Assembly: GCA_013298595.1 (NCBI GenBank)
Contig: JAAFIG010000028.1
Span: 1-63,992 of the forward strand
Length of the DNA: 63,992 bases
Direction: 5' to 3'
From: Deinococcales bacterium
GTDB taxonomy: Bacteria; Deinococcota; Deinococci; Deinococcales; JAAFIG01
A program made the position numbers and the translations under genes. Of the stretch, positions 1 to 63,992 are shown piece by piece; positions within the stretch are counted from its first letter, which is position 1; every line of letters starts with the position of its first letter. The notes beneath the pieces are model-generated. The model had not been told where the DNA came from, ran no database searches, and was given only the letters and a program-made list of their open reading frames with translations.

Positions 1-117
1 AACTGTTCGAGCTTTTCTCAAGTTTTTTGGTTGTGGCGATCTGGCTACGACACGAACTCTTTTGGTTCTAGGGGCGAACGATCTGCCACAACTTTTCTAA
101 CCACTCTTAATATACAA

Positions 118-138
118 GGGGCGAGGTATGCCTCACCC
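118..138. repeat. Small palindromic intergenic repeat (GGGCGAGG type)
   Basis: An imperfect inverted repeat GGGCGAGG-tatg-CCTCACCC. A related unit with the same GAGGC(A/G)YGCCTC core lies at 5151-5169 in the opposite orientation. Function unknown. Confidence 0.45.
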
Positions 139-230
139 ACACAACGGGATAATTAGACCTTCTACGAAAGCAGATAAATTTGTTTTGGCAAGGGAGGGGA
201 CAAGCCCCTCACCTACGAAAAATATTGCCG

Positions 231-256
231 TGTAGGGGCGACCCTTGTGGTCGCCT
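231..256. repeat. Small palindromic intergenic repeat (GTAGGG type)
   Basis: The unit is GTAGGGGCGACC-cttgt-GGTCGCC. It has the same design as the units at 5019-5046 and 15785-15810: a GTAGGG start, a CGA-containing stem and a 5-8 base loop. It lies between genes and has no coding potential. Confidence 0.5.
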
Positions 257-291
257 TGCGTCAGCGTTGGTAACACGTAAGTCAAATGTGC

Positions 292-1632
292 TTACAACTT
301 TATTGTCTCGAGCCAAGCTGCAAATTCTTTTTTTCCTCGAGCGAACAGTACAGGGCGTTTTTCGCGTTTACCAAGTTTTTTCTTGTTCTGGAATTCAATT
401 GGTTTTTCGTGTGCCTCGAGTTCTGGTACGAGCGCCCAGTTGGTGTTCATGGGTTGAAAATTCTTGGCTTCGGCAGTGGCTAAAAAACGAACTAAACCAC
501 CTAGCATGGAATTGATTGGTGGTACAACTGGCTCGAGACTAAGGGCAAGTCTGGCAGCGTTAATACCCGCTAACCAACCCGTGGCGGCACTCTCGAGATA
601 ACCTTCTGTACCTGCTAGAACTCCAGCGGTAAGCAGGCGTGGGTGTGCTTTAAATTGTAGGGTTGCCTCGAGCAGTTTGGGTGCACAAAGATAGGTGTTG
701 CGGTGCATCACTCCGTAACGGGCAATTTCGGCTTGCTCGAGTCCTGGAATGGTTTGTACCACTTCTTTTTGATCGCCCCACTTTAAGCCTGTTTGGAAGC
801 CGACAATGCTCCAGAGTTGCCCAGCCGCATCTTCTTGGCGCAGTTGTGCCACAGCGTAAGGTTCGCGTCCTGTGCGAGGATCGGGTAAACCTTTGGGTTT
901 GAGCGGACCAAATCTCGGGGTGTCTATGCCGCGCCGCGCGATTTCTTCGATCGGCATGCAACCTTCAAAAAACTCGAGTTTCTCCCAGTCGTGCGGGGTG
1001 TGCGAACGGGCTTGCTCGAGTCGAGCGTAGAATGCTAAGTACTCTTCTTTGTTAAATGGGCAATTTAAGTAATCGGCTTCTTGTCCGTAACGCCCAGCGC
1101 GGTACACCAAATCCATGTTGATGCTGTCAAACTCGAGCACAGGTGCGGCAGCGTCGTAGAAACTCAGGCGTTCACCACCTGCAAAGCGGCTGAGAATATC
1201 TTCGGCTAAGGCATCGGACGTTAAGGGTCCCGAGGCTATCACCACCACACCTTCGTCAGGTACTCGAGTTAATTCTTCGCGGATAATTTGGATGTTTGGG
1301 TTTGCCTCGAGTGCCGCGCTGACACTGGCACTAAATCCGTCTCGTTCAACCGCTAAGGCTGCACCAGCGGGTAAACGGTTGGCATCGGCGGCTTGCATGA
1401 TGTTGGCATTGGCTAGGCGCATTTCGGCTTGGAGTAATCCTTTGGCGTTGGTATCGCCTTCACCACCAAAGCTGTTGCTGCACACCAATTCAGAAGCGCC
1501 ACTCGAGCGATGAGCTGGGGTCATTTTATGGGGACGCATTTCAAAAAGTTTGACTTGAACTCCTAAACTAGCAGCAGCTAATGCCGCCTGAGAACCCGCT
1601 AAACCTGCACCAATCACAATTACTTCGTTCAT
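292..1632 (-). CDS. trmFO: TrmFO, folate/FAD-dependent tRNA m5U54 methyltransferase
   Basis: This enzyme makes 5-methyluridine at position 54 of the tRNA T loop, using methylene-tetrahydrofolate and FADH2 in the cytoplasm. The protein opens with the Rossmann motif VIGAGLAGSQAA and carries the family stretches ELVCSNSFGGE and FFEGCMPIEE, which contain the two conserved cysteines, followed by GLPDPRTGREPYAVAQLR. I chose the ATG at 1632 (446 residues), because the upstream in-frame ATGs lie inside the terminator hairpin of the preceding gene and the FAD motif must sit at the N-terminus. No clear Shine-Dalgarno is visible. It follows the subtilase gene on the same strand but is separated from it by a strong terminator, so it probably has its own promoter. 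Confidence 0.95.
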   Translation of the reverse strand: MNEVIVIGAGLAGSQAALAAASLGVQVKLFEMRPHKMTPAHRSSGASELVCSNSFGGEGDTNAKGLLQAEMRLANANIMQAADANRLPAGAALAVERDGFSASVSAALEANPNIQIIREELTRVPDEGVVVIASGPLTSDALAEDILSRFAGGERLSFYDAAAPVLEFDSINMDLVYRAGRYGQEADYLNCPFNKEEYLAFYARLEQARSHTPHDWEKLEFFEGCMPIEEIARRGIDTPRFGPLKPKGLPDPRTGREPYAVAQLRQEDAAGQLWSIVGFQTGLKWGDQKEVVQTIPGLEQAEIARYGVMHRNTYLCAPKLLEATLQFKAHPRLLTAGVLAGTEGYLESAATGWLAGINAARLALSLEPVVPPINSMLGGLVRFLATAEAKNFQPMNTNWALVPELEAHEKPIEFQNKKKLGKREKRPVLFARGKKEFAAWLETIKL

Positions 1633-1671
1633 GTTGAGTAGTTTAAGCAAAAACAGTGGGCAGGTGTGAAC

Positions 1672-1707
1672 AAAAAAAATCATCACCCGAATTCGGGTGA
1701 TGATTTT
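1672..1707 (-). terminator. Rho-independent terminator of the subtilase gene
   Basis: A perfect 32-base palindrome (1676-1707, centre at 1691/1692, arms AAAATCATCACCCGAA and its complement). On the minus strand it runs straight into a T8 tract. It separates the subtilase gene from trmFO. Confidence 0.92.
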
Positions 1708-1720
1708 GACCTCGAGAAGC

Positions 1721-3109
1721 TTATTGCACAGCTTTTAAAGCATTGACTAAACCAGCACCACAACCTTGGGAGCATTGGCTGCTCGAGAGTGCTGTGGCGG
1801 TACTTTTGAGTTTGGTCAGAATTTGGGCTGGGGTGAGGCTGCTGTTGCGAGCCAACATCAAACTGACCAAACCTGCCACGTGCGGGGTTGCCATACTGGT
1901 GCCTTGGTAATAGGTGTAGGTGTAAGCGGTACCTGCACTGTTGCGTAACGTGGAGAGCACACCGTCGTCGAGTACGCCATTGCCGTTGGTATCCGATTGG
2001 GTATCGCCACCTGGTGCGGCAACATCCACATACGAACCATAATTGCTGTAATACGCTTTGCCATTGCTGCGGTTTAAGGCGGCGACGGTAATGGTGTTGT
2101 TGCACGAAGCTGGGGTAAATGTGGCGGTGTCTTTGTTGCTGTTACCAGCGGCAACCACCACCGAAACACCTCGAGCGGTAACATCGTTAATCGCGTTTTG
2201 CGTGGCAGTATCGTTGGTGGCACAGGTCTGACCAGCACTGAGCGAACCACCAAGGCTCATGTTAATGACTTTGGCTGGGTTGGCATTGGCTGGAACACCT
2301 GCCACGCTCATACCACCAGACCAACGAATCGCATCAATGATATCAGCGGTGCTACCACCACATCTGCCAAGTACTCGAATTGGTAAAATTCGGGCATTCC
2401 AATTAACACCTGCCACACCAACACCATTGTTAGTGCTCGCACCAATCGTACCTGCAACGTGCGTGCCATGCCATGAACTCGAGCGAGTCACACCATTGCA
2501 AGTGCCGCTATCGCCGACATCGGTGGCATCAGAATCGCGTCCATTGCCATCTTTAGCGGTGGTACTGCTGCTGATAAAATCGTAGCCACCCACAAAACGC
2601 CCTGATAAATCTGGGTGTGCGGTTTTGCCTGTGTCTATGACAGCTACAATGGGGCTATTTGCGCCAGTGGTTAAGTCCCAAGCAGCAGGTAAACTCATCG
2701 CACCATAATGCCATTGGCTGCCATAACTCGGGTCGTTGGGTACAGCGGCTGGGTAATACAAGTAATTGGGTTGGGCAAATTCGACATCAGCTCGAGCACT
2801 GAGTTGCTCGACCAATTCGGGTACGGTTAACCGAGCACCTTGCACTTGTACACCACTCGAGATGTCATAGAGCACTTCGCCACTGTCGAGGTTGCGTTGT
2901 ACGCTTAAATTTGCACCTGCCACACTTAAACTGCTAGGAGCAAGGTTGCTGTCCTTAAATTTAACCAAAACTTCGCCAGCAACATATTGCGGACTGGTAT
3001 CAAAATTGCTTTGCGAACCAGTGTCCACATCCAGGCTGGGTGCATTGTTACATGCACCCAGAAATGCCACGACTAAACCAGAAATGCCAAGACCTTGCCA
3101 TTTTTTCAT
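1721..3109 (-). CDS. Secreted subtilisin-like (S8) serine protease, lipoprotein
   Basis: A 462-residue extracellular protease. The N-terminus is a lipoprotein signal with lipobox LGAC (Cys20). An inhibitor-like propeptide follows, starting with the typical AGEVLVKFK (about 44-115). The catalytic domain shows Asp159 (AVIDTG), His214 (WHGTHVAG), oxyanion Asn323 (AAGN) and Ser405 (GTSMATPHVAG), so all key residues are present. Two extra cysteine pairs suggest disulfides. The ATG at 3109 has a Shine-Dalgarno, CGGAGG, five bases upstream. The product is probably anchored to a membrane and exposed outside the cytoplasm; its substrate is unknown and peptide scavenging is the usual role. A second S8 lipoprotein of different build lies at 55839-57449. 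Confidence 0.93.
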   Translation of the reverse strand: MKKWQGLGISGLVVAFLGACNNAPSLDVDTGSQSNFDTSPQYVAGEVLVKFKDSNLAPSSLSVAGANLSVQRNLDSGEVLYDISSGVQVQGARLTVPELVEQLSARADVEFAQPNYLYYPAAVPNDPSYGSQWHYGAMSLPAAWDLTTGANSPIVAVIDTGKTAHPDLSGRFVGGYDFISSSTTAKDGNGRDSDATDVGDSGTCNGVTRSSSWHGTHVAGTIGASTNNGVGVAGVNWNARILPIRVLGRCGGSTADIIDAIRWSGGMSVAGVPANANPAKVINMSLGGSLSAGQTCATNDTATQNAINDVTARGVSVVVAAGNSNKDTATFTPASCNNTITVAALNRSNGKAYYSNYGSYVDVAAPGGDTQSDTNGNGVLDDGVLSTLRNSAGTAYTYTYYQGTSMATPHVAGLVSLMLARNSSLTPAQILTKLKSTATALSSSQCSQGCGAGLVNALKAVQ

Positions 3110-3521
3110 ATTGCCTCCGAGTTGTAGTAGTACACCCTTAGATTACACATATCTGAAAAATAAAAGCAAGTTTTTCTCGTGATAAAATTCATACTTGACG
3201 CATTGCTATAGAAAAGTAATTCGAGTAGTAAACAGTTTTTGTAAAGTAAGTAAACTCGAGACCATATTGAGAGTTAGACTACAAAACTATAGAAGTCTAA
3301 AGCGCAATTCTATACTGCTGATACCCCTAAGGACTTCCCAAAGTGAGTATCAAGCCTTAGAATGCAGATTGAAAGGCGTATTCATGTTCAAATCTATGCA
3401 AAACTTGATTGCGCGAAAACCATTGCGCGGCTAAAAACGCTAAGCCGCGCCTTATGACACGATTCTAAAAAATTGTTACTCGAGCACGTACTCGAGTCTT
3501 TATTTCCTGTGAGGAGTTTTT
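3110..3521. other. Intergenic region between the protease and lysS
   Basis: No supported gene. The stretch should hold the divergent promoters of the protease and lysS. A hairpin at 3425-3450 (GCGCGGCT / AGCCGCGC) and a pair of CTCGAG sites six bases apart at 3479-3496, able to form a small stem, lie in the lysS leader. The open frame at 3195-3434 lacks a ribosome site and any recognisable similarity, so I do not call it. Confidence 0.5.
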
Positions 3522-5009
3522 ATGCCTGAAATCCATGAACAAACCCAAGCACGTCTCAATAATTTAAGTCAACTCGAAGCGGCTGGTTTTGAGCGTTTCC
3601 CGTATGCTTACCCTAAAACCCATGATGCAGCGGCTTTGCACACAAAATTTGCTGCTCCACTCGAGCCAGGTTTGGAATGGCTCGAGGAAAAAGTGTCTTT
3701 GGCTGGGCGAATTATTTCGTGGCGCGATACGGGTAAACTGATTTTTGCGGATTTACAAGACGAATCTGGGCGGATTCAATTGTTTATGTCTAAAAATGCA
3801 ATTGCCCAATTTGATGCGGCAAAATTTATTGACCTAGGTGACATTATTGGTGTTGAAGGTCATCTCATGACCACCAAAACAGGCATGTTATCAGTCAAAG
3901 TGACTGGTTTTACGCCACTGGTCAAATCTTTGCATCCGCTGCCCAGCGATTACTACGGACTTGCCGATAAGGAATTGCGGTATCGCCGACGTTACTTAGA
4001 TTTGATTGTTTCGCCAGACTCGAGAAAAACCTTTGTCACTCGCAGTAAAATAGTGCGATTCATTCGCAATTTTTTAGATGCTAAAAACTTTATGGAAGTT
4101 GAAGGTCCAACCCTGCAAGCCATCGCAGGTGGTACCGAAGCTAAACCATTCCTCACGCATCACAACGCGCTATCTCACGATTTTTCCTTACGTATTGCTC
4201 TTGAGTTACACCTCAAACGTCTCTTGGTTGGCGGTTTTGAACGCGTCTACGAAATCGGACGGGTTTACCGCAACGAAGGCATCGATCAAACCCACAGCCC
4301 AGAATTCACCATGCTCGAATTGTACTGGGCATATGTGGATTACGAAGCGATTATGCAACTGGTCGAAGAACTCTTCTCGAGTTTAGCCGTTGAAATCACT
4401 GGTGGTACACAAATCGAGTACGCGAGCCAGAGCTTAAATTTCGCTGCTCCATTTGCGCGTCTCGAGTATGTCCCAGCACTTTTGAAGTATGTTCCAGATT
4501 TAGATTTTGATCCACTCGAGTTAGATAAATTGCGAGCCTTCTGCGATGCCCGTTACCCGCAGTGGAAAGCCGTGCCTGATTACAAGCTGCTTGATAAATT
4601 GTTTGGTATGTATGTCGAGCCACTAATTCAAAACCCGACCTTTGTGATTCATCATCCGACTGTGATTAGCCCACTAGCGAAGCCACACCGCACTTTGAAC
4701 GGTGTGACTGAACGCTTTGAGTTATTTGCCAGCGGTTTTGAGATTGCCAACGCTTTTTCTGAACTCAACGATGCCTTTGATCAACGTGCGCGGTTTGAAG
4801 CACAAGCTGCTCGACGTGTTGCTGGTGACGACGAAGCGCCAGAACTGGATGAAGATTTCCTGCTGGCTCTCGAGTATGGAATGCCACCAGCAGGAGGCTT
4901 GGGATTTGGTATTGACCGTTTGGCAATGTTTTTTACCAACCAAACCAGCCTCCGCGATGTGCTGCTTTTTCCGCTCTTGAAACCAGAACGACACGTCGAA
5001 ACAGAGTAG
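3522..5009 (+). CDS. lysS: Lysyl-tRNA synthetase, class II
   Basis: Charges tRNA-Lys with lysine in the cytoplasm. The 495-residue length is normal. An N-terminal OB-fold that binds the anticodon (about 60-145, with [17 protein letters not shown]) precedes the class II catalytic domain. Motif 2 reads [20 protein letters not shown] and motif 3 [15 protein letters not shown], both intact. The ATG at 3522 follows GTGAGGAG at good spacing. The gene appears to stand alone, with hairpin repeats downstream. Confidence 0.97.
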
Positions 5010-5018
5010 TCATTATTG

Positions 5019-5046
5019 TGTGGGACGAGCGCACTTCGTCCCTACA
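5019..5046. repeat. Small palindromic intergenic repeat (GTAGGG type)
   Basis: Read on the minus strand it is TGTAGGGACGAA-gtgcgc-TCGTCCC, an inverted repeat without a T run. It has the same design as the units at 231-256 and 15785-15810. Confidence 0.5.
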
Positions 5047-5150
5047 GCTTTTTCCCACGCAATGTTTTTGCCCCTCGAGATTTTTCAAAGGCAATGTAAA
5101 CAAATCCAAGCGGGTATTACTTTCTCGAGCTTAGTGCGATTACCGTAGCG

Positions 5151-5169
5151 CTGAGGCGTGCCTCGCCCC
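5151..5169. repeat. Small palindromic intergenic repeat (GGGCGAGG type)
   Basis: GAGG-cgtg-CCTCGCCCC, the reverse orientation of the unit at 118-138. Together with the unit at 5019 it fills the lysS-proC gap. Confidence 0.4.
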
Positions 5170-5253
5170 ATTTGGATCATTCTCGAGAGTCAATAAAGCC
5201 TGTGTTGGGCATCTCCTCATGTGGCGTAAAGCCATGACTCGAGGTTGTACCGC

Positions 5254-5259
5254 TATAAT
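5254..5259 (+). promoter_or_regulatory. -10 box of proC (leaderless start)
   Basis: A perfect TATAAT ends seven bases before the proC ATG at 5267, so transcription should begin at or next to the start codon. This promoter decides the start, since no Shine-Dalgarno is present. Confidence 0.75.
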
Positions 5260-5266
5260 GTGGTTA

Positions 5267-6055
5267 ATGAAACTGGGTGTTGTTGGTGTTGGCAAAATGG
5301 GTGAAGCCATTCTCGAGGGTGTGCTTGGGTCGCGGTTACTCGAGCATTCCGAAGTCGGTGTGATTGGTGGTGTGTCGCGGCGAGCTGCCGAAGTTGCCGA
5401 GAAACACGGGGTGGCTTTGCTATCTAAAGCTGATCTTCGCAGCGCCGAACGGGTTTTAATTTGTGTGCAACCCAAAGTTTTCCCAGAAATTTGTCAATGG
5501 ATTGCTCATCCGAACGCTGGGTTTATTAGCATTATGGCTGGTGTGAATTTAGCCAGTTTGTCGCGGCGTATTGGTTCGCGGCGGGTGGTGCGGGTCATGC
5601 CGAATTTGGGTGCAACCATTCATAAGAGTGCAACTGCTATTGTCGGTATGCCCGAAGCTGCGGAGAGTGGCGATCTCGAGTTTGCACAGGCGTTGTTTGC
5701 AGCAGTGGGTGATGTTTACGATTTGCCCGAAGCACTTTTTAATACCTTTACAGGTATGGTTGGGTCTGGTCCTGCGTATGCGGCTATTTTTGCCGAAGCA
5801 CTAGCCGATGGCGGTGTGCGAATGGGCTTGAATCGTAAATTAGCGATTGAGTTAGCAGGTAAGTTACTGATTTCCACAGGTGAGTTGTTGTTGCGAAGAG
5901 TGCATCCCAGTATTCTTAAAGATGAAGTGGCGAGTCCAGGTGGTACGACCATTGCGGGTATTGCCGAAATCGAACGCTATACTTTTCGGGCTGCAATTAT
6001 TGAAGCGGTACGGGCTGCAACTGAACGTGGTCAGCAATTAGGAGAAGACAAATGA
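5267..6055 (+). CDS. proC: Pyrroline-5-carboxylate reductase
   Basis: Performs the last step of proline synthesis, reducing pyrroline-5-carboxylate with NAD(P)H. The protein (262 residues) begins [16 protein letters not shown], the Rossmann GxGxxG motif at the very N-terminus, and carries the family signature near the C-terminus ([16 protein letters not shown]) after [17 protein letters not shown]. The longer open frame upstream is not used: the ATG at 5267 lies seven bases after TATAAT, which indicates a leaderless message. Its stop overlaps the ATG of the next gene (ATGA), so the two are translationally coupled. Confidence 0.95.
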
Positions 6056-18571: not shown

Positions 18572-20014
18572 CTAACCGACTGACCCTTCCATCTCGAGTT
18601 CAATCAAGCGGTTGAGTTCTACTGCGTACTCGAGTGGTAATTCCTTGGCAATCGGTTCGATGAATCCGCGCACAATCAAACCTGTTGCGGCTTCTTCGCT
18701 TAACCCTCGAGACATTAGGTAGAACACTTGTTCATCGTTGATTTTAGATACGGTGGCTTCGTGTCCAACGGAAGCAGTTTTTTCTTCGATTTCGATGTAT
18801 GGGTAAGTATCAGTTCTCGAGTCATCGTTTAAGAGTAGCGCATCGCATTCGACGTTGCTTTTGGCGTTTTTTGCACCATCATAAATCTTGACCAGACCAC
18901 GGTAACTCGAGCGTCCATTGTTTTTGCTAATGCTTTTAGAAACAATACTCGAGCTTGTGTTTGGGGCGAAATGCACGACTTTACCACCAGCATCTTGGTG
19001 TTGCCCTGTGGTTGCCATAGCAATGGATAGAATCTCGCCACGAGCACCTGGCTCGAGGAGGTACGTGGCTGGGTATTTCATGGTGACTTTGCTGCCGAGG
19101 TTGCCGTCCACCCATTCCATGACTGCGCCTTCGTATACGGCTGCGCGTTGTGTAACAAGGTTGTAGACATTATGCGACCAGTTTTGGATGGTGCTGTAAC
19201 GCATCCGAGCGCCTTTTTTAACCACAATTTCAATCACACCAGAGTGGAAGCTATCACTCGAGTAACTTGGTGCGGTGCAACCTTCGATGTAATGGGCATA
19301 AGCACCTTCGTCAATAATTATCAAGGTGCGTTCAAACTGTCCGCTGTTCTCGGCGTTGATACGGAAATAGGTTTGCAATGGTACTTCGACTTGCACACCT
19401 TTTGGTACGTAGACAAAGCTACCACCAGACCAAACAGCGCTGTTAACGGCTGCGAACTTATTATCCTCGGGTGGGATAACCGTACCGAAATGTTCGCGGA
19501 AAAGTTCTGGGTGTTCGCGCATTCCATCTTCGATACTCAGGAAAATTACGCCAAGTTTTTCCCATTCTTCTTTCAGGTTGTGATACACCATCTCAGATTC
19601 GTATTGAGCACCAACGCCTGCCAGCATTCCACGTTCGGATTCTGGAATTCCGAGCTTATCAAAGGTGCGTTTAATGTCGTCTGGAACATCATCCCAAGTT
19701 CGGCTATTGAGCATATCTGTGGGTTTGATGTAGTAGTAAATATTCTCGAGATCAAGCCCACTTAAATCCGCACCCCATTTAGGAATTGGTTTGCTGCGGT
19801 AAATGTCAAGAGCTTTCATGCGGAACTCGAGCATCCAAGCAGGTTCTTCTTTGGATTTACTAATCAGTTCGACAACTTCTCGAGATAAGCCTTTAGGGGC
19901 TTTGATGGTGTAATTCTCGGGTTGGCTCCAACCGAATTCGTATGCCTCGTTGATCTGGGCAATGGCGGCATCGGGGATGTTATCGCTAAAACGTTCTTCG
20001 ATTGCTTCGGGCAT
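18572..20014 (-). CDS. sufB: SufB, Fe-S cluster assembly scaffold subunit
   Basis: The main scaffold of the SufBC(2)D complex. The protein (480 residues) starts MPEAIEERFSD and carries the typical SufB stretches WGADLSGLDLENIYYYI, VPKGVQVEVPLQTYFRIN, EGCTAPSYSSDSFHSGVIEI (with the conserved Cys) and HEATVSKINDEQVFYLMSRG with the conserved Glu and His. The ATG at 20014 is preceded by AAGGAG, four bases away; the 30-residue upstream extension is not used. It lies 34 bases after sufC. Confidence 0.97.
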   Translation of the reverse strand: MPEAIEERFSDNIPDAAIAQINEAYEFGWSQPENYTIKAPKGLSREVVELISKSKEEPAWMLEFRMKALDIYRSKPIPKWGADLSGLDLENIYYYIKPTDMLNSRTWDDVPDDIKRTFDKLGIPESERGMLAGVGAQYESEMVYHNLKEEWEKLGVIFLSIEDGMREHPELFREHFGTVIPPEDNKFAAVNSAVWSGGSFVYVPKGVQVEVPLQTYFRINAENSGQFERTLIIIDEGAYAHYIEGCTAPSYSSDSFHSGVIEIVVKKGARMRYSTIQNWSHNVYNLVTQRAAVYEGAVMEWVDGNLGSKVTMKYPATYLLEPGARGEILSIAMATTGQHQDAGGKVVHFAPNTSSSIVSKSISKNNGRSSYRGLVKIYDGAKNAKSNVECDALLLNDDSRTDTYPYIEIEEKTASVGHEATVSKINDEQVFYLMSRGLSEEAATGLIVRGFIEPIAKELPLEYAVELNRLIELEMEGSVG

Positions 20015-20048
20015 AAAGCTCCTTGTGGTGCGGGTGTTTCTCGAGAAT

Positions 20049-20810
20049 TTAAAAGGCTGCTGCTGGTTGCGCGGCTGCCATAGCTTTGACTGGTTCGTAA
20101 CCATTTGCCTCGAGTTCGACGGCTAATTCTTTACCACCTGATTTGACGATGCGTCCGTCTACCATGATATGCACCATGTCTGGCACAATAAACTCGAGCA
20201 AGCGGTTGTAATGGGTTATCATCAGGGCGCTAAAATTGGCGCTTCGCATGGCGTTAACGCCTTTGGCTACAACTTTGAGTGCGTCGATGTCTAAGCCTGA
20301 ATCGGTTTCGTCCATCAGGGCGCAGCTTGGCTCGAGCATCAGCATTTGTAGGATTTCGTTGCGTTTTTTCTCACCACCACTGAAACCTTGGTTCAGGTAA
20401 CGGTTGACCCAGCTTTCGTCCCAGTCGAGAATCTCGAGGGCGCGGGTGAGTTTTTTGTAGAAATCCATGAATTGGACTTCTTGTCCTGTACGGGCTTGAA
20501 TGGCAAGGCGAAGGAAATTGGCAACAGTCACACCTGGAATCTCGACGGGGTATTGAAATGCAAGGTATAAGCCTTGACGGGCGCGTTCGTCTGGCTCGAG
20601 TTCGAGGATGTTTACGCCGTTATAAAGCACTTCGCCGCGTTCGATGGTGTATTCGGGTGCGCCTGCAATGGCTTTAACAAGGGTGCTTTTGCCGTTACCG
20701 TTGGGTCCCATGATGGCATGGAATTGCCCAGCTGGTACGTGTAGGTTTACACCTTTGAGAATCATTTCGTTGTCTATGCTGACCCATAAGTCTTTAATTT
20801 CGAGGTTCAC
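20049..20810 (-). CDS. sufC: SufC, Fe-S assembly ATPase
   Basis: The ABC-type ATPase that drives the SufBCD complex. It has 253 residues with Walker A GPNGNGKST (35-43), the signature FSGGEKKR and Walker B CALMDETDSGLD; these are normal for SufC. The start is a GTG at 20810, with AAGGAG five bases upstream. It is the first gene of the suf operon; a palindromic operator candidate lies about 60 bases upstream. Confidence 0.97.
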   Translation of the reverse strand: MNLEIKDLWVSIDNEMILKGVNLHVPAGQFHAIMGPNGNGKSTLVKAIAGAPEYTIERGEVLYNGVNILELEPDERARQGLYLAFQYPVEIPGVTVANFLRLAIQARTGQEVQFMDFYKKLTRALEILDWDESWVNRYLNQGFSGGEKKRNEILQMLMLEPSCALMDETDSGLDIDALKVVAKGVNAMRSANFSALMITHYNRLLEFIVPDMVHIMVDGRIVKSGGKELAVELEANGYEPVKAMAAAQPAAAF

Positions 20811-35900: not shown

Positions 35901-36591
35901 AGAAGTTGCTGGTAGCACAGCAGTTTATGGACGCACCGACCTTGGCTTCTCCTTAGCTAATGCTGGCAAGTTGATTCCAGGTGTTAATGTTGTCTTTGGC
36001 TTCGGCTCAAGTAGCAACTCGTTGGTTGCAGCTGATACCCGTACGACACTGTATGCTTACGCTGATACATCGTTTAGCTTGGCTGGCTTTACAGTCGCGC
36101 CAAAAGTATACTTTGCAACCCGTGATAGCAATGGTGGTGCTACATTCGGTACAGATGACATCACCCAATTCGGCGCTGCTGTAACTGCTGGTGGTGACTT
36201 CCTCCTCGGATCGAAGATTGCTCTTGGCGTTGCGTTTGATACTGCAAGTCATACAGTTGGCGCATCAGCTTCGAGTACATTCTTGTTCAGCGCTGGTTTG
36301 AGCTGGGCAAATGGTCCGTTGCCAGGCAGTACTTTTGGCGTTAGCTTCTCAACTCGTGCTGATATTGCTCGCAGTGGTACTGGTTTCGGACCAAGCTTCG
36401 CAGCACCAGTTGCAATTGGTAGCTGGGGTGCAGATGGTGCAGGGGCAGCAGTGCTTACAGGTGTTACTTTCAACTTTGATTACTATGGTTTAGCATTCCG
36501 TTACGGAATCTTCAACCATACCAATATCAATGGTGCTCCAGTTGTCACATGGGGTTCACGTTTCAGCATTGGTTACAGCCTCAAGTTCTAA
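32983..36591 (+). CDS. slpA: SlpA-like S-layer/outer-membrane surface protein with SLH domain
   Basis: A 1202-residue major envelope protein. The signal peptide ends AFA-QA (residue 24). One SLH domain (about 47-100, DIPAGHWASEAVKVAANCGIVRGFPDGTFR) should bind the secondary polymer of the cell wall. Residues about 125-550 are a long coiled coil with about ten Ala-rich units of the form AAQQTADDALAAA, and residues about 560-1202 are Gly/Ser/aromatic beta-strand repeats ending in Phe (FSIGYSLKF), as in outer-membrane barrels. This is the architecture of Deinococcus/Thermus SlpA, which ties the outer membrane to the wall. AGGGGG precedes the ATG. The barrel half has no CTCGAG and uses different codons from the neighbours, consistent with very high expression. 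Confidence 0.93.
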   Translation: MKKFPAAMLLTAALSAGATAFAQAGTNPTGQVDPASAQTQNQKPAELKDIPAGHWASEAVKVAANCGIVRGFPDGTFRGNEPVSRYQAAAIVARLLDAIRNGECGIPKYATQADLQAAVTAVNTRIDNINTTGTPTLSAADLVALQNAIQELAADLAQLGVRVADLEDNAVSQDDLARVEEIATQARDLAEAAAAAAQEANDTATGALDTATGAQSTADEALAAAAAAQQTADDAAAAIEAAQQTADDALDAAANAQQAADDAMAVAEAAQQSADDALAAAAAAQQSADDAVAAAETAQSTADEALAAITAAQEAADAALAAAEVAQQTADDALALAQAAQPAGDYATNEDLASVAETASQAKDLAEAVAAALETASGGSIDLGAISDLQDQIEAASIAADTALAQSRELQDRYDELNGRVDDLESQLGELGATVEGQADSIAALNDLVVLLNQDTLSLQDRVTQLERGLADTTAAFDDVAANAASQEDLESLREFTTLLRRDQTALSDRVGELEARVGRVENRVTAVEGRVSALEANAFTISGTIGLSYRRSSVWREDGNSLAAFDFDIDRLALPNGGFNGGFSSGTGDGSVSTNARTFSDFAGGDGGTNGTRSVNANGQSGQLVRLEGRIAPSVTLNFGFKPRALIGATTNGLGNTFSITLNLALVTSTPFSGTSGGRDSVVNPATFSLSSLALAYEVGSAPLLIKFGVNVGFAFTKYGFANSGGVGDGIVASLDGAGLLPLNPKLSVVYQSRGGADGDFFYFTGAKGSLSLLPGLTGGVYYVVGGEDIITSALTRDTTTLYGLDFSGKLFGFLDLSGEWNASQFATATNATTVNRVATFVNAGVNFDPFTIGANWRYVDAGWSGNSSDLSNDGGPYADNQTGFGVTLGAKNLLGFLNLNGYFDSRSLPTGSAAPVGNGPGRPAGINFQGGLLSTSMDTNGATSTGSTDFGVVVGLNLVGFDLQGYFFNESEVAGSTAVYGRTDLGFSLANAGKLIPGVNVVFGFGSSSNSLVAADTRTTLYAYADTSFSLAGFTVAPKVYFATRDSNGGATFGTDDITQFGAAVTAGGDFLLGSKIALGVAFDTASHTVGASASSTFLFSAGLSWANGPLPGSTFGVSFSTRADIARSGTGFGPSFAAPVAIGSWGADGAGAAVLTGVTFNFDYYGLAFRYGIFNHTNINGAPVVTWGSRFSIGYSLKF

Positions 36592-36603
36592 TCTCGAATC
36601 TCG

Positions 36604-36639
36604 AAAAAAAGACCCCCGCGCAAGCGGGGGTCTTTTTTT
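36604..36639. terminator. Strong bidirectional terminator between slpA and trxB
   Basis: GACCCCCGC-gcaa-GCGGGGGTC flanked by A7 and T7, shared by the convergent slpA and trxB genes. Confidence 0.95.
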
Positions 36640-36656
36640 ACTTTAATTTGGGTTGT

Positions 36657-37595
36657 TTAATCGGCTGCAACCAGTTGATCCTCGAGGTCTGCAATGTACT
36701 TTTCGGCTTTCATGGCGGCTTTGGTGCCTGCGCCAACACTGGTGCTGAGTTGCCTGTAAATTTCGTCGGAGACATCGCCTGCACTGAATAACCCTGAGAT
36801 GCTGGTGTAAATTTCGTCTTTGACAGCTACGTAACCATGGGTGTTTAGTTCGACGGTATTCTCGAGGAATTTGGTGTTTGGTTCGTGTCCTACGTATATG
36901 AATACACCATCTGTGGGGATAATAGTCTCGAGTCCTGTTTTGATATTTTTGGCGCGAACACCACTGACTAATTCGTCACCAAGAACTTCTTCAACAACAG
37001 TATCCCAAATAAATTTCATTTTAGGGTTTTTGAAAGCACGATCTTGGGCAACTTTGTTAGCGCGGAGTGTGTCGCGGCGGTGAACTATGGTGACAGTTTC
37101 AGCAAATTTGGTTAAAAAAGTGCCCTCTTCGATGGCAGCGTCGCCGCCACCAACAACAATCACATGTTTGCCTCGGTAAAAGAAACCATCGCAAGTCGCG
37201 CAGGTACTTACACCGCGTCCGTAAAATTTATCTTCGCCTGGAACATCTAAACGCTTAGGATTTGCACCTGTGGCAATAATCACAACATGAGCATTGTAGG
37301 TTTTGTCGTAACCACGCAAACGAAAACCATTGCCAATTTTCTCGAGGCTTTGGACTTCGTCGTAAATAATTTCTGCACCAAATTTTTCGGCTTGAGCAAC
37401 CATACGGCTTGAAAGTTCAGGTCCTGAGATAACATCAGGGAAACCTGGGTAATTTTCGACTTCTTCGGTTTGAGCAATTTGTCCGCCTGGGTTACCTTTT
37501 TCGACAATAGCGGTTTTTAAACCACCTCGTCCTGCGTAAATACCTGCGGTTAAACCAGCGGGTCCAGCTCCAATAATCAGTACATCGTATGTCAT
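36657..37595 (-). CDS. trxB: Thioredoxin reductase
   Basis: The flavoenzyme that reduces thioredoxin with NADPH. The protein (312 residues) has FAD motif [10 protein letters not shown] (9-18), the redox pair Cys132-Cys135 (TCATCDG), NADPH motif [12 protein letters not shown] and the FAD-binding C-terminus [11 protein letters not shown]. The ATG at 37595 has AGGAG eight bases upstream; the 26 upstream residues in frame are not part of the protein. It stands alone, convergent with slpA. Confidence 0.96.
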
Positions 37596-44194: not shown

Positions 44195-44200
44195 AAAGAG

Positions 44201-44230
44201 ACTCGAGGGAATTTAACCTCGAGTTCTTTT
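44201..44230 (+). terminator. CTCGAG-armed hairpin between the two tRNA genes
   Basis: ACTCGAGG-gaatttaa-CCTCGAGT followed by TCTTTT. It may end or attenuate the transcript after tRNA-His or act as a processing signal. Confidence 0.7.
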
Positions 44231-44279
44231 ATTGATTATCTTTGATTCTTGTAGTAGGCTTTTGCGGCTCTACTGGTAT

Positions 44280-52600: not shown

Positions 52601-53047
52601 ATGAATGGAAAAACTTTTGCCCGTAGTTTTATGATGCATCGTGCGGCTCTGATCGAATTGCTCGAGAAAATCCCTGCCGATCAAGCCGATTTTAAAGCTT
52701 GGGATGGTGGTATGACCTTCACCAAACTTGCCGATCATTTGTCTGGTTCGAGTACACGTATGGCTGTTTTTATGCGTGGTGAGAAGCCCGATCCGATTGA
52801 ACCAAGTGCCGATTTTACAGCGGCGATTGCGCGTTTAAAAACCAATTTGACCGATACTCAAACCATGCTCGAGGGTTTAACGTCTGAGGGGTTGCAAAAA
52901 GTTGTGCCTGCTTTTGGTGGGCGTGAAATGCCTGTGGCGATGCTGGCAGATTTTTTGATTCAGCACGAAGCACATCATAAGGGGCAGATTTGGATGATGG
53001 CGCGAATGATTGGTGTTGAACCACAAATGTTTATTAAAATGGGCTAA
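52601..53047 (+). CDS. DinB-family protein
   Basis: A 148-residue four-helix bundle metal protein. The His triad is visible: MHRAALIELLEK (His13), KLADHLSG and HEAHHKGQIWMMARMIG at the end. The family includes DinB and thiol-dependent enzymes such as bacillithiol transferases; the exact role here is open. TAGACT lies nine bases before the ATG. A terminator follows. Confidence 0.85.
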   Translation: MNGKTFARSFMMHRAALIELLEKIPADQADFKAWDGGMTFTKLADHLSGSSTRMAVFMRGEKPDPIEPSADFTAAIARLKTNLTDTQTMLEGLTSEGLQKVVPAFGGREMPVAMLADFLIQHEAHHKGQIWMMARMIGVEPQMFIKMG

Positions 53048-53061
53048 TTGGCTCGAGTTTG

Positions 53062-53089
53062 GGTAGGCAATGGTTGCCTACCTTTTTTG
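53062..53089 (+). terminator. Terminator after the DinB gene
   Basis: GGTAGGCAA-tgg-TTGCCTACC with T6. It lies between the DinB stop and the next gene's promoter, inside what would be an upstream extension of the BTAD frame, ruling that extension out. Confidence 0.93.
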
Positions 53090-53112
53090 TTTTGCCTGTT
53101 AGACTACTAACC

Positions 53113-55803
53113 ATGTTGCGTCTCGAGGTGCTGGGGTCTGTGCAGGTCTTGCTGCACGGTAAACCAGTGTCGCTTGGGGTTAAACCTTTGGCATTGCTGG
53201 TGTATTTGGCACTCGAGGGGCGCACAAATCGGCGGGCGTTAGGGGCGCTGATTTGGGATGATGCTCCGAACCCATTAAACAATGTTTCGGTGGCAAAAAA
53301 TCAACTCGAGAAAGCGCTTGGTGATGTACTGGATGCCGATGTGGACTCGCTTGCCTTGAAAAGTTTTTCTTGCGATGCCCTCGAGTTTCATGCCAGTCAT
53401 CCCGATTCATGGGCTTTATGGCGTGGTGGTTTTTTTACGGGTCTGCGTTTAGCAGGTTGGGAGAAGCAATTATCCGACGCGTGGCAAGATTGGTTGTACG
53501 CTACGCGCTCGAGATTAACGGCTGAACGGCAAAAACTGGCGGTGCACCTAGCAGAAGCCCAGATTGCAACGGGGCAACTCGAGGCGGCACTTGAATTTTT
53601 AGAAGTGGCAACCAGTGGCGATGAACCACTCGAGGATGCTGCTACCAAGCAAATTCTGGTGTTGGGTGCACTGGGTCGCGCTCAAGCTGCGCTCGAGGTT
53701 TTTACGCGCTTAGCACGGTTGCTGCGTGAAGAACTGGGTGTCGAACCGATGCCTGAAACGCTGGCTGCCCTCGAGTTTGCTCGAGCCGATGCTGTGGCTT
53801 GCAAAGCTAAACTGGGTGCTAGAGTTATCAGTACCGTACCGAGCGCCAAAGCCGATGTGCCATTTGTTGGACGCGACTCGCAAACACAACAACTTGGTAC
53901 GTTTTTACAATCTGCGCCAGCTCGGGTCGCCATTATTGAAGGCGAACCCGGCGCGGGAAAAACCCGTTTAGCCCTTGAAATCCTCGAGCAAAGCAATCTT
54001 CGATTCTGGCATCTCGAGTGCTTACACGGGGCATTAAGTGGTGCGACACTGGCATCTTTGGTAACACAACTTGGCAGTCTGGACGCACTACCTGCCGACT
54101 CGAGAAGTGCCTTGGAACGTTTACTCGGTTTACGCGATGCCAAGGAATCCTTACCACCTGATCTCGAGCAAAAAGCTATTTTTCTGGGGATTCGCGCTTT
54201 ACTTGTACAAACTGCGCCTAAGGTTGCGTTGCTATTCGACGATCTGCAATGGGCGGACGATTTAACCCTGCGTTTTCTTGGCTGGTGCTTTGCCGAGCCA
54301 ATGCCCCTCGAGCAATTTTGTGTGCTGATAACCCTGCGTAATACCGAAAGTGCTAGGGGAGATGTACCAAATGTCCTCGCTGATTTTGCTCGTCGTGGTA
54401 TTTCAACACGCCTCGCTTTACCCGCCCTCGAGATGGAAGCTGTCCAAACCCTCGCCACACAATTTGGTAAAACCACCGATGCAGCAACGCTCTACAATGC
54501 TTCTGGAGGTAACCCATTTTATTTACTCGAGTTGCTGCGTTCCCCCGATGGTAAAGGACGCATCGCCGAGTTAATTCGTGCGCGGCTCGAGGGACTTGGC
54601 AGTGTGGCTCAGCAAATGCTCGAGGCACTGTGTATCGTTGGCAGCAATGCCTCGGTGGCTTTGCTGCGAGCTGTGTCTGGGCGTTCACTCGACGAAGAAC
54701 ACGATGCCTTGGTCACATTAACCGCTGCTGCTTTACTGCACACCACCGATACAGTACGCTTTGCCCACGACTTGGTACGCGAAAGTATCGAAACACAACT
54801 CAGTGCGGCTCGAGCGCAACTTTTGCACCTCCGAGCAGCTCGAGCATCACAACCCGTCGAAGCTGCCACACATTACTGGGCAGCCCGTGAAGCCTGGCTC
54901 GAGACGGACACCAACAATGCTATTCAAGCCTTCCTCGAGTTAGGCACCCGCCAAGGCTACCGAGGCGAACGTGAACCTGCGCTGATTTGGTTTGAACGCG
55001 CCCTCGAGCACTGCCCAGACACCATGCGAGCCACAGTCATGATCGAACAAGCCTCGTTACTCGAGCGATTCGGCGATTACCAAGCCGCGATGCAACAACT
55101 CGCCGATGCAGAATGGTGGCTCGAAACAGACTTACAAAAAGCCAAAGTGTTGGTGGCTCGAGGGTTTATTTTGCAACGTGAATTGCGTGATTTTACAGGA
55201 GCTGAACAAGCTTTACTCGAGGCACAAAAGCTACTAGCAGGACAAAAAAACCGTGAGACACTGCTGATTTATGGTGATGCTGTGCATTTATTAGGCACCG
55301 TAGCATTCCAACAAAAAAAATATACAGAAGCCCTCGAGCATTACCAAACTGCCTACAAATTAAGACAGAATTTACGTGACAATATGCGACTCGCAGAAAG
55401 CCTGAGTGGGCTTGGGAGTGTTTGTATTTCGCTTAACGATACTCGAGCGGAAAAATTTATTCTTGAAAGTATCAAATTGCGTCGTGAGCTTGGCGATTTG
55501 ATACGTGTCACAAGATCATTAACTAACCTTACGGCACTTTATCACCAACAGGGTAAAATTGAAGCTGCACTCTCTGCCCAACGTGAGGCTTTAGACACGC
55601 AGTACCACATTGGTAATTCAACAGATATCGCTATTTCTCTGAATAATCTTGGTGTTTTTCTATTTGATGCGGGTGATATTGTCGCTGCTGCTGACCATTA
55701 TAGACAAGCTATTGAGATTATGCAGAAAAATCAACTTGAACCTCGAGTTGATTTCTTAGCTAATCTCGCTGAAGCCGAAGCGATACTGGCTCAAGACCTT
55801 TAA
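53113..55803 (+). CDS. BTAD/AAA/TPR transcriptional regulator
   Basis: An 896-residue regulator with the same layout as the one at 39393: winged helix (about 1-85, MLRLEVLGSVQVLLHGKPVS), BTAD helices (about 90-230), AAA ATPase with Walker A EGEPGAGKTRLALEI near residue 280 and Walker B VALLFDDLQWADD, then TPR repeats (about 600-890). It is shorter because the TPR part is shorter. The start at 53113 lies seven bases after TAGACT (leaderless). CTCGAG is dense here: about 30 copies. It is followed by a subtilase lipoprotein gene 35 bases on. Confidence 0.92.
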   Translation: MLRLEVLGSVQVLLHGKPVSLGVKPLALLVYLALEGRTNRRALGALIWDDAPNPLNNVSVAKNQLEKALGDVLDADVDSLALKSFSCDALEFHASHPDSWALWRGGFFTGLRLAGWEKQLSDAWQDWLYATRSRLTAERQKLAVHLAEAQIATGQLEAALEFLEVATSGDEPLEDAATKQILVLGALGRAQAALEVFTRLARLLREELGVEPMPETLAALEFARADAVACKAKLGARVISTVPSAKADVPFVGRDSQTQQLGTFLQSAPARVAIIEGEPGAGKTRLALEILEQSNLRFWHLECLHGALSGATLASLVTQLGSLDALPADSRSALERLLGLRDAKESLPPDLEQKAIFLGIRALLVQTAPKVALLFDDLQWADDLTLRFLGWCFAEPMPLEQFCVLITLRNTESARGDVPNVLADFARRGISTRLALPALEMEAVQTLATQFGKTTDAATLYNASGGNPFYLLELLRSPDGKGRIAELIRARLEGLGSVAQQMLEALCIVGSNASVALLRAVSGRSLDEEHDALVTLTAAALLHTTDTVRFAHDLVRESIETQLSAARAQLLHLRAARASQPVEAATHYWAAREAWLETDTNNAIQAFLELGTRQGYRGEREPALIWFERALEHCPDTMRATVMIEQASLLERFGDYQAAMQQLADAEWWLETDLQKAKVLVARGFILQRELRDFTGAEQALLEAQKLLAGQKNRETLLIYGDAVHLLGTVAFQQKKYTEALEHYQTAYKLRQNLRDNMRLAESLSGLGSVCISLNDTRAEKFILESIKLRRELGDLIRVTRSLTNLTALYHQQGKIEAALSAQREALDTQYHIGNSTDIAISLNNLGVFLFDAGDIVAAADHYRQAIEIMQKNQLEPRVDFLANLAEAEAILAQDL

Positions 55804-55838
55804 GGGTGATTTAAGGGTTAGCGCTGTACAATAATGGC

Positions 55839-59953: not shown

Positions 59954-59970
59954 TTGCTCGAGTTACAAGA

Positions 59971-59999
59971 ACCTCCCAAAAACTGGGAGGTTTTATTTT
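59971..59999. terminator. Bidirectional terminator between the DUF11 and RNA-ligase genes
   Basis: ACCTCCCA-aaaac-TGGGAGGT followed by TTTATTTT on the plus strand. It sits in the short gap between convergent genes and reaches the stop codon of the RNA-ligase gene. Confidence 0.85.
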
Positions 60000-61039: not shown

Positions 61040-61041
61040 GG

Positions 61042-61821: not shown

Positions 61822-61985
61822 GATTTCCTTTTGAGGTGTTCTGGTATGACTTGGACGGGTGTGATAATCCAGCGCCTGTCTTCTAGTTTCTCGAGTTGTA
61901 CGTGCTTACCAGCGTAGTCTTTGCCGAGTGAGATTTGTCCGCTGGCGGAGATGGTTTTCAGTTCGGTTTTGTGTGGTTGTGCCAT
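61818..61985 (-). CDS. AbrB/antitoxin-like 55-residue protein
   Basis: A small gene too short for usual ORF cut-offs. The translation reads MAQPHKTELKTISASGQISL then GKDYAGKHVQLEKLEDRRW and IITPVQVIPEHLKRKS. The middle SxxGQISLGKxYAGKxVxLE resembles the swapped-hairpin AbrB-type or antitoxin fold of short bacterial proteins that regulate their own operon. TATAAC lies eight bases before the ATG (leaderless). Its stop overlaps the GNAT start (ATGA), so it leads the operon GNAT-RNA ligase, and it may act as its repressor or antitoxin. Confidence 0.85.
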   Translation of the reverse strand: MAQPHKTELKTISASGQISLGKDYAGKHVQLEKLEDRRWIITPVQVIPEHLKRKS

Positions 61986-62007
61986 AACACCATGTTATAC
62001 ACAAATA

Positions 62008-62457
62008 TTATTCACTTGGTTGCCAAACGCCTTGTAAGCGCCGTAGCAATACAATTTGTCCAAGGTGGTATGCGTTGTGCAACGCAAAATCAAGCAGTAA
62101 ATCGGCAATGGTTTCTTCGCCTCCAAGGTATGCTTGACCAAGCAGTGCTCCATCATCACAAAGTTGTTTTAATCCCTCGAGTGAAGCAAAAAAATCCTCG
62201 AGTGTATTTTGCCATTCCTCGAGTGGCAGTGTTGGTGGGAATTCATTGCCTGTTTGAGGTATTCGCTTACCAGCGCGCAGGTTGGTCAGGGCTTGGCGTT
62301 GCCACCATGCCATGTGTGCCACATGCCCAGCAATGCTATGCAGCGAATTTTGGGGAATCGCAATGGCAATGCTTGGCTCGAGGTTCGCTAGGATTTCTTG
62401 GGGTTTTTGAAAAGAAACTCCACCCTCGAGCATGTTTTTTATCGTTGCTCCAATCAT
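62008..62457 (-). CDS. DinB-like protein
   Basis: A 149-residue four-helix bundle protein. The His motifs HSIAGHVAHMAWWQRQAL and HNAYHLGQIVLLRRLQGVW are visible and would bind a metal. The family is the same broad group as the protein at 52601, with low similarity. It overlaps the upstream double-GNAT gene by four bases (ATGA), so it is coupled to it. Role unknown; thiol-dependent detoxification is one option in the family. Confidence 0.82.
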   Translation of the reverse strand: MIGATIKNMLEGGVSFQKPQEILANLEPSIAIAIPQNSLHSIAGHVAHMAWWQRQALTNLRAGKRIPQTGNEFPPTLPLEEWQNTLEDFFASLEGLKQLCDDGALLGQAYLGGEETIADLLLDFALHNAYHLGQIVLLRRLQGVWQPSE

Positions 62458-63407
62458 GGGTTACCTCCTGATAATTCTTTGATGCATTCTATCCAAGCGG
62501 GGCATTGCTGAAAACCTAGTTTGGTGTTCAGTGCCAGTATGGGAAGGTTATTGCTGTCGTTCCAAGTACGAATTTCAGGGTAACCATTGGTTTTTGCCCA
62601 CTCGAGACACGCGACTTTTAAAGCCAAAGCAATGTGTTTGCCTCGAGCTTCGCGGCGCACACCTGTCAAACCAATATTTAAGTGCTCACCATCGGTTTTA
62701 AACAGTTGGGATAAGCCAATCAATTCGCCATTTTGGACTGCTAAAAATGTACCTTTGAATAACACTTTTGGACTTTCGAGATTCCATTTCAAAAAATCAT
62801 CGTACCCGCGTTCTGTAGCTGGATATGCTCGAGGTACGTCGAGGGATGTGTCTTGTTTCAATTGGTAGTATTTTTGTTTAGCATTTTCAAATGATAATAC
62901 TTGCTCAAGGTTGAGTATCTGAATGCCTTGCAACTCGAGTTCAGCAGCTAAATGGGCATACGGTAATGCGTCAAATTCGGGTACGGCAATGCGGTTTTCC
63001 CATGTTCGCATTTTCTCAGTGAAACCGTTAGCTTTTAGGAATGCTAAACCGTTTTTGTCTTCTCGAGTATTACTGATAAAACCAATCGGATCGTGTGGTT
63101 GCAACGCCTCAAGCAATGATGCCCAAAGCTTTGAACCAATGCCTTGACGCTGATATTCTGGGCGCACTACCACCCATAAGCGAAAACGTTGTGGGTGGTA
63201 CTGCCCAATATCTTGGGTGTAATGACCATAAGCAACAGCTTTACCCTCGAGCCAAGCAACAAGGCGTTGATGTTTAATGTGGCTTGGTCGGTTTGTATCG
63301 TCTTGGCGGTTACTTTCGGCGCTGTATGGATCATCGGTAAAGACCGAATTTTCGATGTCTGACATCACCTGATAATCGTTTTCGGTGAAAGATTTAATCT
63401 CGAGCAT
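62454..63407 (-). CDS. Double GNAT acetyltransferase
   Basis: A 317-residue protein with two GNAT lobes. Lobe 1 (about 1-150) reads FRLWVVVRPEYQRQGIGSKLWASLLEAL (canonical R/Q-x-x-G-x-G/A), ending FLKANGF. Lobe 2 (about 160-317) reads GELIGLSQLF, TGVRREARGKHIALALKVACLEWA and LALNTKLGF. The ATG at 63407 has AAGGAG five bases upstream and overlaps the stop of the next gene. The two-lobe form is that of mycothiol synthase and of several antibiotic acetyltransferases, but the target is not known. The neighbour at 63407 is a paralogue. Confidence 0.88.
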   Translation of the reverse strand: MLEIKSFTENDYQVMSDIENSVFTDDPYSAESNRQDDTNRPSHIKHQRLVAWLEGKAVAYGHYTQDIGQYHPQRFRLWVVVRPEYQRQGIGSKLWASLLEALQPHDPIGFISNTREDKNGLAFLKANGFTEKMRTWENRIAVPEFDALPYAHLAAELELQGIQILNLEQVLSFENAKQKYYQLKQDTSLDVPRAYPATERGYDDFLKWNLESPKVLFKGTFLAVQNGELIGLSQLFKTDGEHLNIGLTGVRREARGKHIALALKVACLEWAKTNGYPEIRTWNDSNNLPILALNTKLGFQQCPAWIECIKELSGGNP

Positions 63408-63992
63408 CAAAACTCCTTTTTCATCACCAGCACCGCTGGTTGGCGCACGAAACCGAGTTTGTCGTTAATCGCAAGCATGGCTGCATTGCGGGTGTCGTTG
63501 TCGGTGCGGATGGTGGTAAAACCATGTGTTTGTGCCACTTCGATTTGTTTTATTTTTAAGGCAGTGGCAATGCCTCGTCCTCGAGCTTCTTGGGTGGTGG
63601 CGGTTAGCCATTGATCTACCCAGCCTTCTCGAGCACCACGAAAACACCCTGTAAAACCGATAATTTTGTTGTTCTCGAGAGCATAAAACGAGGCATCACT
63701 GAGGGTTTCGCTGTCTGATAAAATATTTTCATCAAAAAATTCAAAAGTAATGCGTGTTGCAGGCTCAGATCGTGGGACATCGAGTCGCACAATTTCAAAA
63801 ACTTCGTGTAATTCTTGTCGGCGCTCAAGGGAATCGGCTGCTTGCCAAGAAACCAGTTGCACACCGCTTTGCTCTAAACTCGAGATTTTTGCTTGGTATG
63901 GTTGACTCGAGAAATTGCTGATGTCTAGTAAACTCTCAAAATCGCGTTTGATTTCGGTATAACCGCGTTTTGTCGCAAACTGCATGGCTCGA
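63407..63992 (-). CDS. GNAT acetyltransferase, cut at its N-terminus by the window edge
   Basis: The frame stays open to the last base, so this is the C-terminal part (at least 194 residues). It ends as does its neighbour: EGWVDQWLTATTQEARGRG, then IATALKIKQIEVAQTHGF and MLAINDKLGFVRQPAVLVMK. It also starts inside a lobe (MQFATKRGYTEIKRDFESLL), so the full protein is probably another double GNAT. The apparent ATG at 63985 is not a real start. Tandem duplication with the 62454 gene is likely. Confidence 0.88.
   Translation of the reverse strand, partial: RAMQFATKRGYTEIKRDFESLLDISNFSSQPYQAKISSLEQSGVQLVSWQAADSLERRQELHEVFEIVRLDVPRSEPATRITFEFFDENILSDSETLSDASFYALENNKIIGFTGCFRGAREGWVDQWLTATTQEARGRGIATALKIKQIEVAQTHGFTTIRTDNDTRNAAMLAINDKLGFVRQPAVLVMKKEF

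Follow-up and report, generated by a model that had tools for sequence, protein, structure and literature searches.

Genome-Wide Iteration of the Palindrome CTCGAG in an Uncultured Family of Deinococcales

Introduction

Which force can fill a bacterial chromosome with copies of a single six-base word? This question is raised by the stretch of DNA analysed here (the window, 63,992 nt in total), in which the palindrome CTCGAG recurs throughout. Its host belongs to an uncultured Deinococcales family (f1), with relatives deposited as "Deinococcales bacterium" MAGs. A preliminary description of the window had likened the word to HIP1 of cyanobacteria. The function of HIP sequences has been debated for decades, and CTCGAG offers an independent case in another phylum. 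As relatives display the trait in strong, moderate or no form, its causes are traceable by comparison.

Abundance and Distribution of CTCGAG

The window contains 405 exact copies of CTCGAG (6.3 per kb), and no hexamer is more common; CTCGAA/TTCGAG, with 50 copies, remains far below. Sites follow each other at a mean spacing of 157 bases (SD 156) with an approximately exponential distribution, the bases flanking them carry no information content, and intergenic and coding densities are alike (6.2 and 6.3 per kb). The preliminary description had counted 36 copies in the first 6 kb and about 30 at 53.0-55.8 kb, anticipated several hundred in total and judged words of the CTCGAA type less extreme; recounting returned 36 and 31, and the other two statements hold as well. 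Individual features are compiled in Table 1. A separate observation concerns the gene for a 1202-aa SLH/porin-like protein, which is CTCGAG-poor (2.5 sites per kb) and contains the widest interval between neighboring sites anywhere in the window.

Table 1. Positions of the features discussed, in the window and at loci of the genomes compared
Feature	Sequence	Coordinates	Strand	Remarks
CTCGAG array	window	1..63992	.	405 copies, 15-36 per 4 kb
Stretch counted first	window	1..6000	.	36 CTCGAG
lysS	window	3522..5009	+	sites within conserved gene, alignable to relatives
sufB	window	18572..20104	-	served to identify the lineage; orthologs in three "Deinococcales bacterium" MAGs, their loci with 6.7-7.8 CTCGAG/kb
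SLH/porin-like gene	window	32983-36591		
Largest inter-site gap	window	34864..36686	+	1817 bases, 3' half of SLH/porin-like gene
tRNA-His/tRNA-Leu spacer	window	44195..44279	+	85 bases with 2 CTCGAG; 0 in either tRNA
Dense stretch	window	53000..55800	.	31 CTCGAG, nearly all within BTAD-type regulator gene 53059-55803
Low-GC gene pair	L106 (G000 C66)	2643-5089		
Gamma-type methyltransferase and neighbour	L083 (G001)	342-2782		
Broken XhoI-family endonuclease and neighbour	L316 (G009)	2830-5226		
Orphan methyltransferase	L097 (G015)	4339-6087		

In the genome of the window (G000, 4.58 Mb), 27,159 copies of CTCGAG face only 15 of the reversed word GAGCTC, corresponding to one CTCGAG about every 160 bases in genic and intergenic DNA alike. 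In a 932-kb sample covering 20% of this genome, with genes called by a simple open-frame rule, the densities amount to 6.16 per kb in coding DNA and 6.04 per kb in spacers, and they are equal near gene starts and stops too.

Null Models and Saturation

A third-order Markov null predicts 127 copies in the window, yielding an observed/expected ratio (o/e) of 3.2. The sites inflate the very 4-mers on which this null is built, so that it makes the effect look smaller than it is. A codon-aware null, in which synonymous codons were shuffled within genes with protein and codon usage kept, predicts 39.6 copies in genes of the window, while 368 are observed (o/e 9.3). The three frames hold 216, 89 and 63 copies against shuffle expectations of 25, 11 and 3.4, and the same null gives o/e values of 5.7-10.2 in five other strongly enriched genomes, again in all frames. 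No other 6-mer palindrome in the window is comparable, the second by o/e, CTATAG, having only 3 copies. Occurrence in all three frames and between genes had been reported before, together with the argument that Leu-Glu codon preference is insufficient as a cause. Both stand, as no frame is exclusive, and neither an o/e near 1 nor enrichment of a single frame, the two outcomes named earlier as contrary to the claim, was found. The over-representation is confirmed and is stronger than first claimed.

The degree of saturation becomes apparent when only compatible sequence contexts are considered. In the 932-kb sample, 67% of Leu-Glu pairs are written CTC-GAG, compared with 1.6% under neutrality (odds ratio 128). 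For frame 1, 65% of [APST]-Arg-[VADEG] carry CTCGAG against a neutral 4.2% (odds ratio 43), and for frame 2, 40% of x-Ser-[Ser/Arg] against 1.2% (odds ratio 57). Spacers of the same sample hold 667 copies, where 18.6 are expected from base composition and 8-12 from masked Markov models. A single multiplicative factor, roughly 40-130, fits every sequence context. Iteration this strong points to a strong force on the DNA sequence itself.

Footprint in the Proteome

The consequences extend to the encoded proteins. The sample of G000 contains 4281 Leu-Glu pairs, 2.35-fold the 1824 expected from composition, and the corresponding z of 57.5 is the largest among all 400 dipeptides; Ser-Ser, which CTCGAG can also encode, is second by z with 16.6. 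The o/e of Leu-Glu is 1.01 in loci of other prokaryotes, 1.17 in the trait-free relative G004 and 0.76-0.95 in Thermus samples. When orthologs were aligned across four strong genomes, site differences accompanied by an amino-acid change outnumbered silent ones (391 vs 147). The force on CTCGAG is strong enough to alter proteins, and the case is one of a DNA word reshaping a proteome.

Conservation, Turnover, and Acquired DNA

The preliminary description had proposed a comparison with relatives at aligned sites, and this turned out in favor of the iteration. At positions with the same CTCGAG-compatible amino acids in both genomes, 82-84% of G000 sites are matched in G001, compared with 30-38% occupancy where G000 has no site (Fisher p 5e-9; these fill figures count sites, not independent events), and synonymous codon identity in this comparison is 0.52. 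In the trait-free G004 of family f2, 1 of 9 G000 sites (0.11) is matched.

Words that differ from CTCGAG by one base offer a view of how sites are lost. In intergenic DNA, transition one-offs are in excess (TTCGAG 2.97, CTTGAG 2.07, CCCGAG 2.37; overall 2.1-3.0), while transversion one-offs lie near or below expectation (0.68-1.44). Since reversible mutation plus selection on the exact word alone predicts neutral deviants, the excess implies either decay through transitions combined with another route of regain, or residual activity of the deviant words.

Genes of low-GC islands (L106, L147, L150 and L162) contain 0-1 sites per kb, which suggests that foreign DNA acquires CTCGAG slowly. One of these loci, in G000 itself, is a gene pair of 32% GC with one N6/N4-type methyltransferase and zero CTCGAG (L106, Table 1). 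This restriction-like island is a recent acquisition. The absence of CTCGAG may serve as an acquisition clock.

Phylogenetic Distribution

Densities of 5.9-7.7 CTCGAG per kb are found in each of the four genomes of f1 and in genus g11, which belongs to family f2. Within f2, G008 has 3.6 per kb and G004 0.3 per kb, and moderate enrichment appears in some genera across the 111 genomes of the class. Samples of Meiothermus-like genomes (f5 g13 and g23) reach o/e values of 2.4-4.2, and f5 genus g7, putatively Thermus, stays near 1, the genus names in f4 and f5 being inferred. Culturable genera are represented among the moderate genomes of the Meiothermus type, which makes methylation, binding and uptake testable at the bench. 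The CTCGAG-dense contigs among the viral ones listed are high in GC (64-71%) and mostly bear GAGCTC too.

One genome of family f3 (G104, genus g29) stands apart. A sample of 48% GC (L348) gives a codon-aware o/e of 8.5 for CTCGAG; genome-wide, only 2.3 copies per kb are found, with a Leu-Glu o/e of 1.31. Here, the same process may have arisen independently or may still be at an earlier stage.

The strong genomes (the window and samples of G000-G003 and G012) severely avoid almost all other GC-rich 6-mer palindromes, with observed against expected counts in their samples of 0/93 for GAGCTC, 0/126 for TTCGAA, 0/99 for TCGCGA and 0/64 for CCGCGG; GGCC in G000 has an o/e of 0.01. The set of avoided palindromes differs between species and seemingly exceeds what the few resident restriction systems explain. 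Moderate and trait-free relatives display less avoidance. Such severe avoidance makes the exception of CTCGAG more striking.

A Probable Recognition Word Kept Site by Site

These features are probably best explained by CTCGAG being a HIP-like recognition word, which is kept by site-wise selection or conversion and read by a putative symmetric protein. The word would be held near saturation along the whole chromosome, in genes as in spacers, by a force acting on each site. Taking the odds ratio over neutral of 40-130 (ln odds ratio 3.8-4.9), the strength per site would be about 4-5 in 2Ns units. From the exact six-base two-fold symmetry and the lack of flank preference we infer that the reader is a protein, presumably a single one, which is itself symmetric and binds or modifies DNA in a sequence-specific manner. 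Sites would decay mainly via transitions and would be kept or restored by selection or allelic conversion, as modelled for neisserial uptake sequences. Several points weigh against this explanation. The search returned no trans-acting factor, a density of one site per 160 bases far exceeds the needs of strand-directed repair or DNA uptake, and the moderate enrichment seen in further genera may reflect a force that is ancient and general rather than lineage-specific.

In its more specific form, a HIP without methylation coupling, the force would come from a chromosome-wide sequence-specific protein or recombination process exerting a 2Ns of about 4-5 per CTCGAG. We give this form slightly less than an even chance. 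If true, a methylation-independent force fills two thirds of the Leu-Glu codon pairs and more than doubles Leu-Glu in the proteome. The likelihoods that we assign below to methyltransferase, uptake and nucleoid readings overlap with that of the recognition word and are not additive.

Methyltransferases and XhoI Homologs

The preliminary description had suggested an orphan methyltransferase of XhoI-type specificity. We searched 21 genomes for members of PF00145, PF02384, PF01555, PF07669 and PF02086, followed by clustering. No methyltransferase of these five Pfam families is common to G000-G003 and G012, an absence that would mean little in any one genome, as the relatives are MAGs of 58-96% completeness, and means more across several. 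The best candidate, the C5 enzyme L082, occurs only in G000, G001, G012 and G105, with orthologs of 74-80% in G001 and 59-62% in G012. Its family was not found in G002 or G003, and the copy of G105 holds a stop. L082 lacks an adjacent endonuclease in G000 and G001 and is thus an orphan there, while an HNH protein adjoins the G012 copy. Because CTCGAG density in the gene is near normal, i.e., at equilibrium, L082 is an old resident. The gamma-type enzymes L080, L083 and L085 each adjoin a protein of ~310 aa; these neighbors are mutually unrelated and look like restriction partners. By eye, the neighbor at L083 in G001 resembles BsuBI/PstI-family endonucleases, and CTGCAG is observed 0 times in this genome against 26 expected.

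Restriction-modification systems usually lead to avoidance of their recognition word. A XhoI-family endonuclease (PF04555) was not found in G000-G003, G008, G012 or G016, and a resident XhoI system was rejected as candidate since the endonuclease is missing from the strong genomes. It is present in G018, G042 and G048 and broken in G009. In f4 g10, the three genomes with the endonuclease have 1390-1947 CTCGAG and the three without it 3640-4718. The XhoI-bearing genomes display avoidance of CTCGAG, the opposite of the strong genomes. In G009, the XhoI-family gene broken by stops lies beside an intact Eco57I-type methyltransferase of 583 aa. The moderately enriched, Meiothermus-like G015 encodes a 582-aa relative of the latter (48% identical) with no endonuclease neighbor at its locus. 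This orphan is the only positive hint of a link between CTCGAG and a methyltransferase. Of the enzyme suggested earlier, one orphan relative is thus present in a moderate genome, and none shared by the strong genomes was found in the five families searched.

Methylation-coupled maintenance, in which CTCGAG would be marked by an orphan methyltransferase and both created and kept through methyl-directed repair or some other process that depends on methylation, amounts to Elhai's model with another word. Cyanobacterial HIPs track cognate methyltransferases (PMC4390886), and an orphan CTCGAG methyltransferase is reported in Nocardia (PMC4752239). The G015 orphan and the residence of L082 in G000 and G001 are in line with this, and the enzymes may be unrelated from genome to genome while sharing one specificity. 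With the five families yielding no enzyme that all strong genomes share and L082 missing or interrupted as described, we nevertheless regard such coupling as rather unlikely.

Uptake or Recombination Signal

CTCGAG could alternatively favor uptake of kin DNA or strand exchange, with transformation spreading the sites by molecular drive. The neisserial DUS carries the same population-genetic signature, with a 2Nes of about 4 and transition one-offs as the commonest deviants (PMC2397512), and the excess of transition one-offs reported above is hard to obtain from reversible mutation and selection alone. However, DUS occur about once per 1.1 kb, matching the length of conversion tracts, whereas CTCGAG is filled in at one per 160 bases, and a six-base palindrome provides little kin-specific information. 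We consider this scenario unlikely.

Nucleoid Protein and Short-Range Spacing

A dimeric nucleoid protein that binds CTCGAG everywhere, with a small fitness gain per site through chromosome packaging or segregation, appears to us no more probable than the uptake scenario, and no less. The uniformity over genes, spacers and gene edges and the two-fold symmetry of the word fit such a protein, and so does the fill of compatible codon positions, which amounts to 22-27% within 17 bp of another site, 54-60% at 18-49 bp and 72-78% beyond 80 bp; a second site close to the first would seem to be of no use. The trend is replicated in other strong genomes. In genes, pairs of sites less than 18 bp apart reach only about a quarter of their expected number. 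In spacers, 33 are observed against 43.6 expected (0.76), compatible with no depletion. As spacers lack a clear depletion, a binding footprint is not established, and the difference between genes and spacers counts against the recognition word as well. The spacing analysis revealed neither helical phasing nor a preferred spacing, and the nucleoid reading comes with no candidate protein.

Possible sources of the short-range depletion are a protein footprint, messenger hairpins or the protein-level cost of two nearby changes. Hairpin avoidance was disfavored as the cause, since inverted repeats in general show no comparable depletion within genes, but spacers lack the effect.

Mutational Bias, Codon Usage, and Artefacts

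A mutational or repair bias, such as Vsr-type very-short-patch repair or a biased polymerase, would produce CTCGAG in the absence of selection and would explain the uniformity of coding and non-coding DNA. Vsr (PF03852) is absent from all strong genomes, which renders Vsr-type repair very unlikely; CTTGAG/CTCAAG, which Vsr should remove, are in excess, and any such bias must restore CTCGAG from several different one-offs. The bias reading as a whole is improbable, clearly more so than the preceding ones. Vsr genes do lie near C5 methyltransferases in relatives lacking strong iteration (L092/L311 in G008 C11, L310 in G010 C7).

That the iteration is an ordinary result of codon usage, Leu-Glu preference or assembly artefact, with nothing in its favor except that frame 0 is the commonest, has virtually no likelihood left and is already refuted by the synonymous shuffle, the three frames, the spacers and the near absence of the reversed word, and for an artefact by independent MAGs from other studies that also carry the iteration.

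Comparison with Known Systems

The preliminary description had known of no equivalent in this lineage. Our literature search agrees, as none of the work it covered describes iteration of CTCGAG in Deinococcota. XhoI/PaeR7I restriction-modification systems recognize the same word; the strong genomes differ in having no XhoI-family endonuclease. The Chi hotspot is recognized by RecBCD, AddAB or AdnAB and displays a strand orientation bias, which the self-complementary CTCGAG cannot have. The uptake sequences of Neisseriaceae and Pasteurellaceae (DUS/USS) are longer (about 9-12 bases) and not palindromic. They resemble CTCGAG in being genome-wide, conserved across species and clade-restricted, and DUS also in selection strength and dominant one-offs (PMC2397512), while CTCGAG is a six-base palindrome with uninformative flanks and is denser than one per ~1.1 kb. 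For Nocardia, Blow et al. 2016 (PMC4752239) described an orphan methyltransferase whose CTCGAG sites cluster locally near dnaA; here, the same word covers the whole chromosome at constant density.

The closest parallel is HIP1, GCGATCGC, of Cyanobacteria, treated along with alternate HIPs by Elhai 2015 (PMC4390886). The likeness drawn in the preliminary description proved apt. Like the cyanobacterial HIPs, CTCGAG is a palindrome over-represented genome-wide, in coding DNA in any frame and in intergenic DNA; it is specific to a clade with sporadic loss in relatives, conserved at aligned sites and accompanied by informative one-offs. The word itself is another one, sharply limited to six bases, and it is found in another phylum, in Deinococcales. 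HIP1 reaches 300-2700 copies per million bases, so that the 5.9-7.7 CTCGAG per kb are more than double the maximum of 2.7 per kb for the HIP1 8-mer in Elhai's Table 2, and the saturation model of the same work, with about one site per 1000 bases, cannot account for the density of CTCGAG (PMC4390886). In further contrast to HIP1, the strong CTCGAG genomes share no common methyltransferase of the five families searched, though non-homologous enzymes of one specificity may be at work, and the word has more than doubled Leu-Glu in the proteome.
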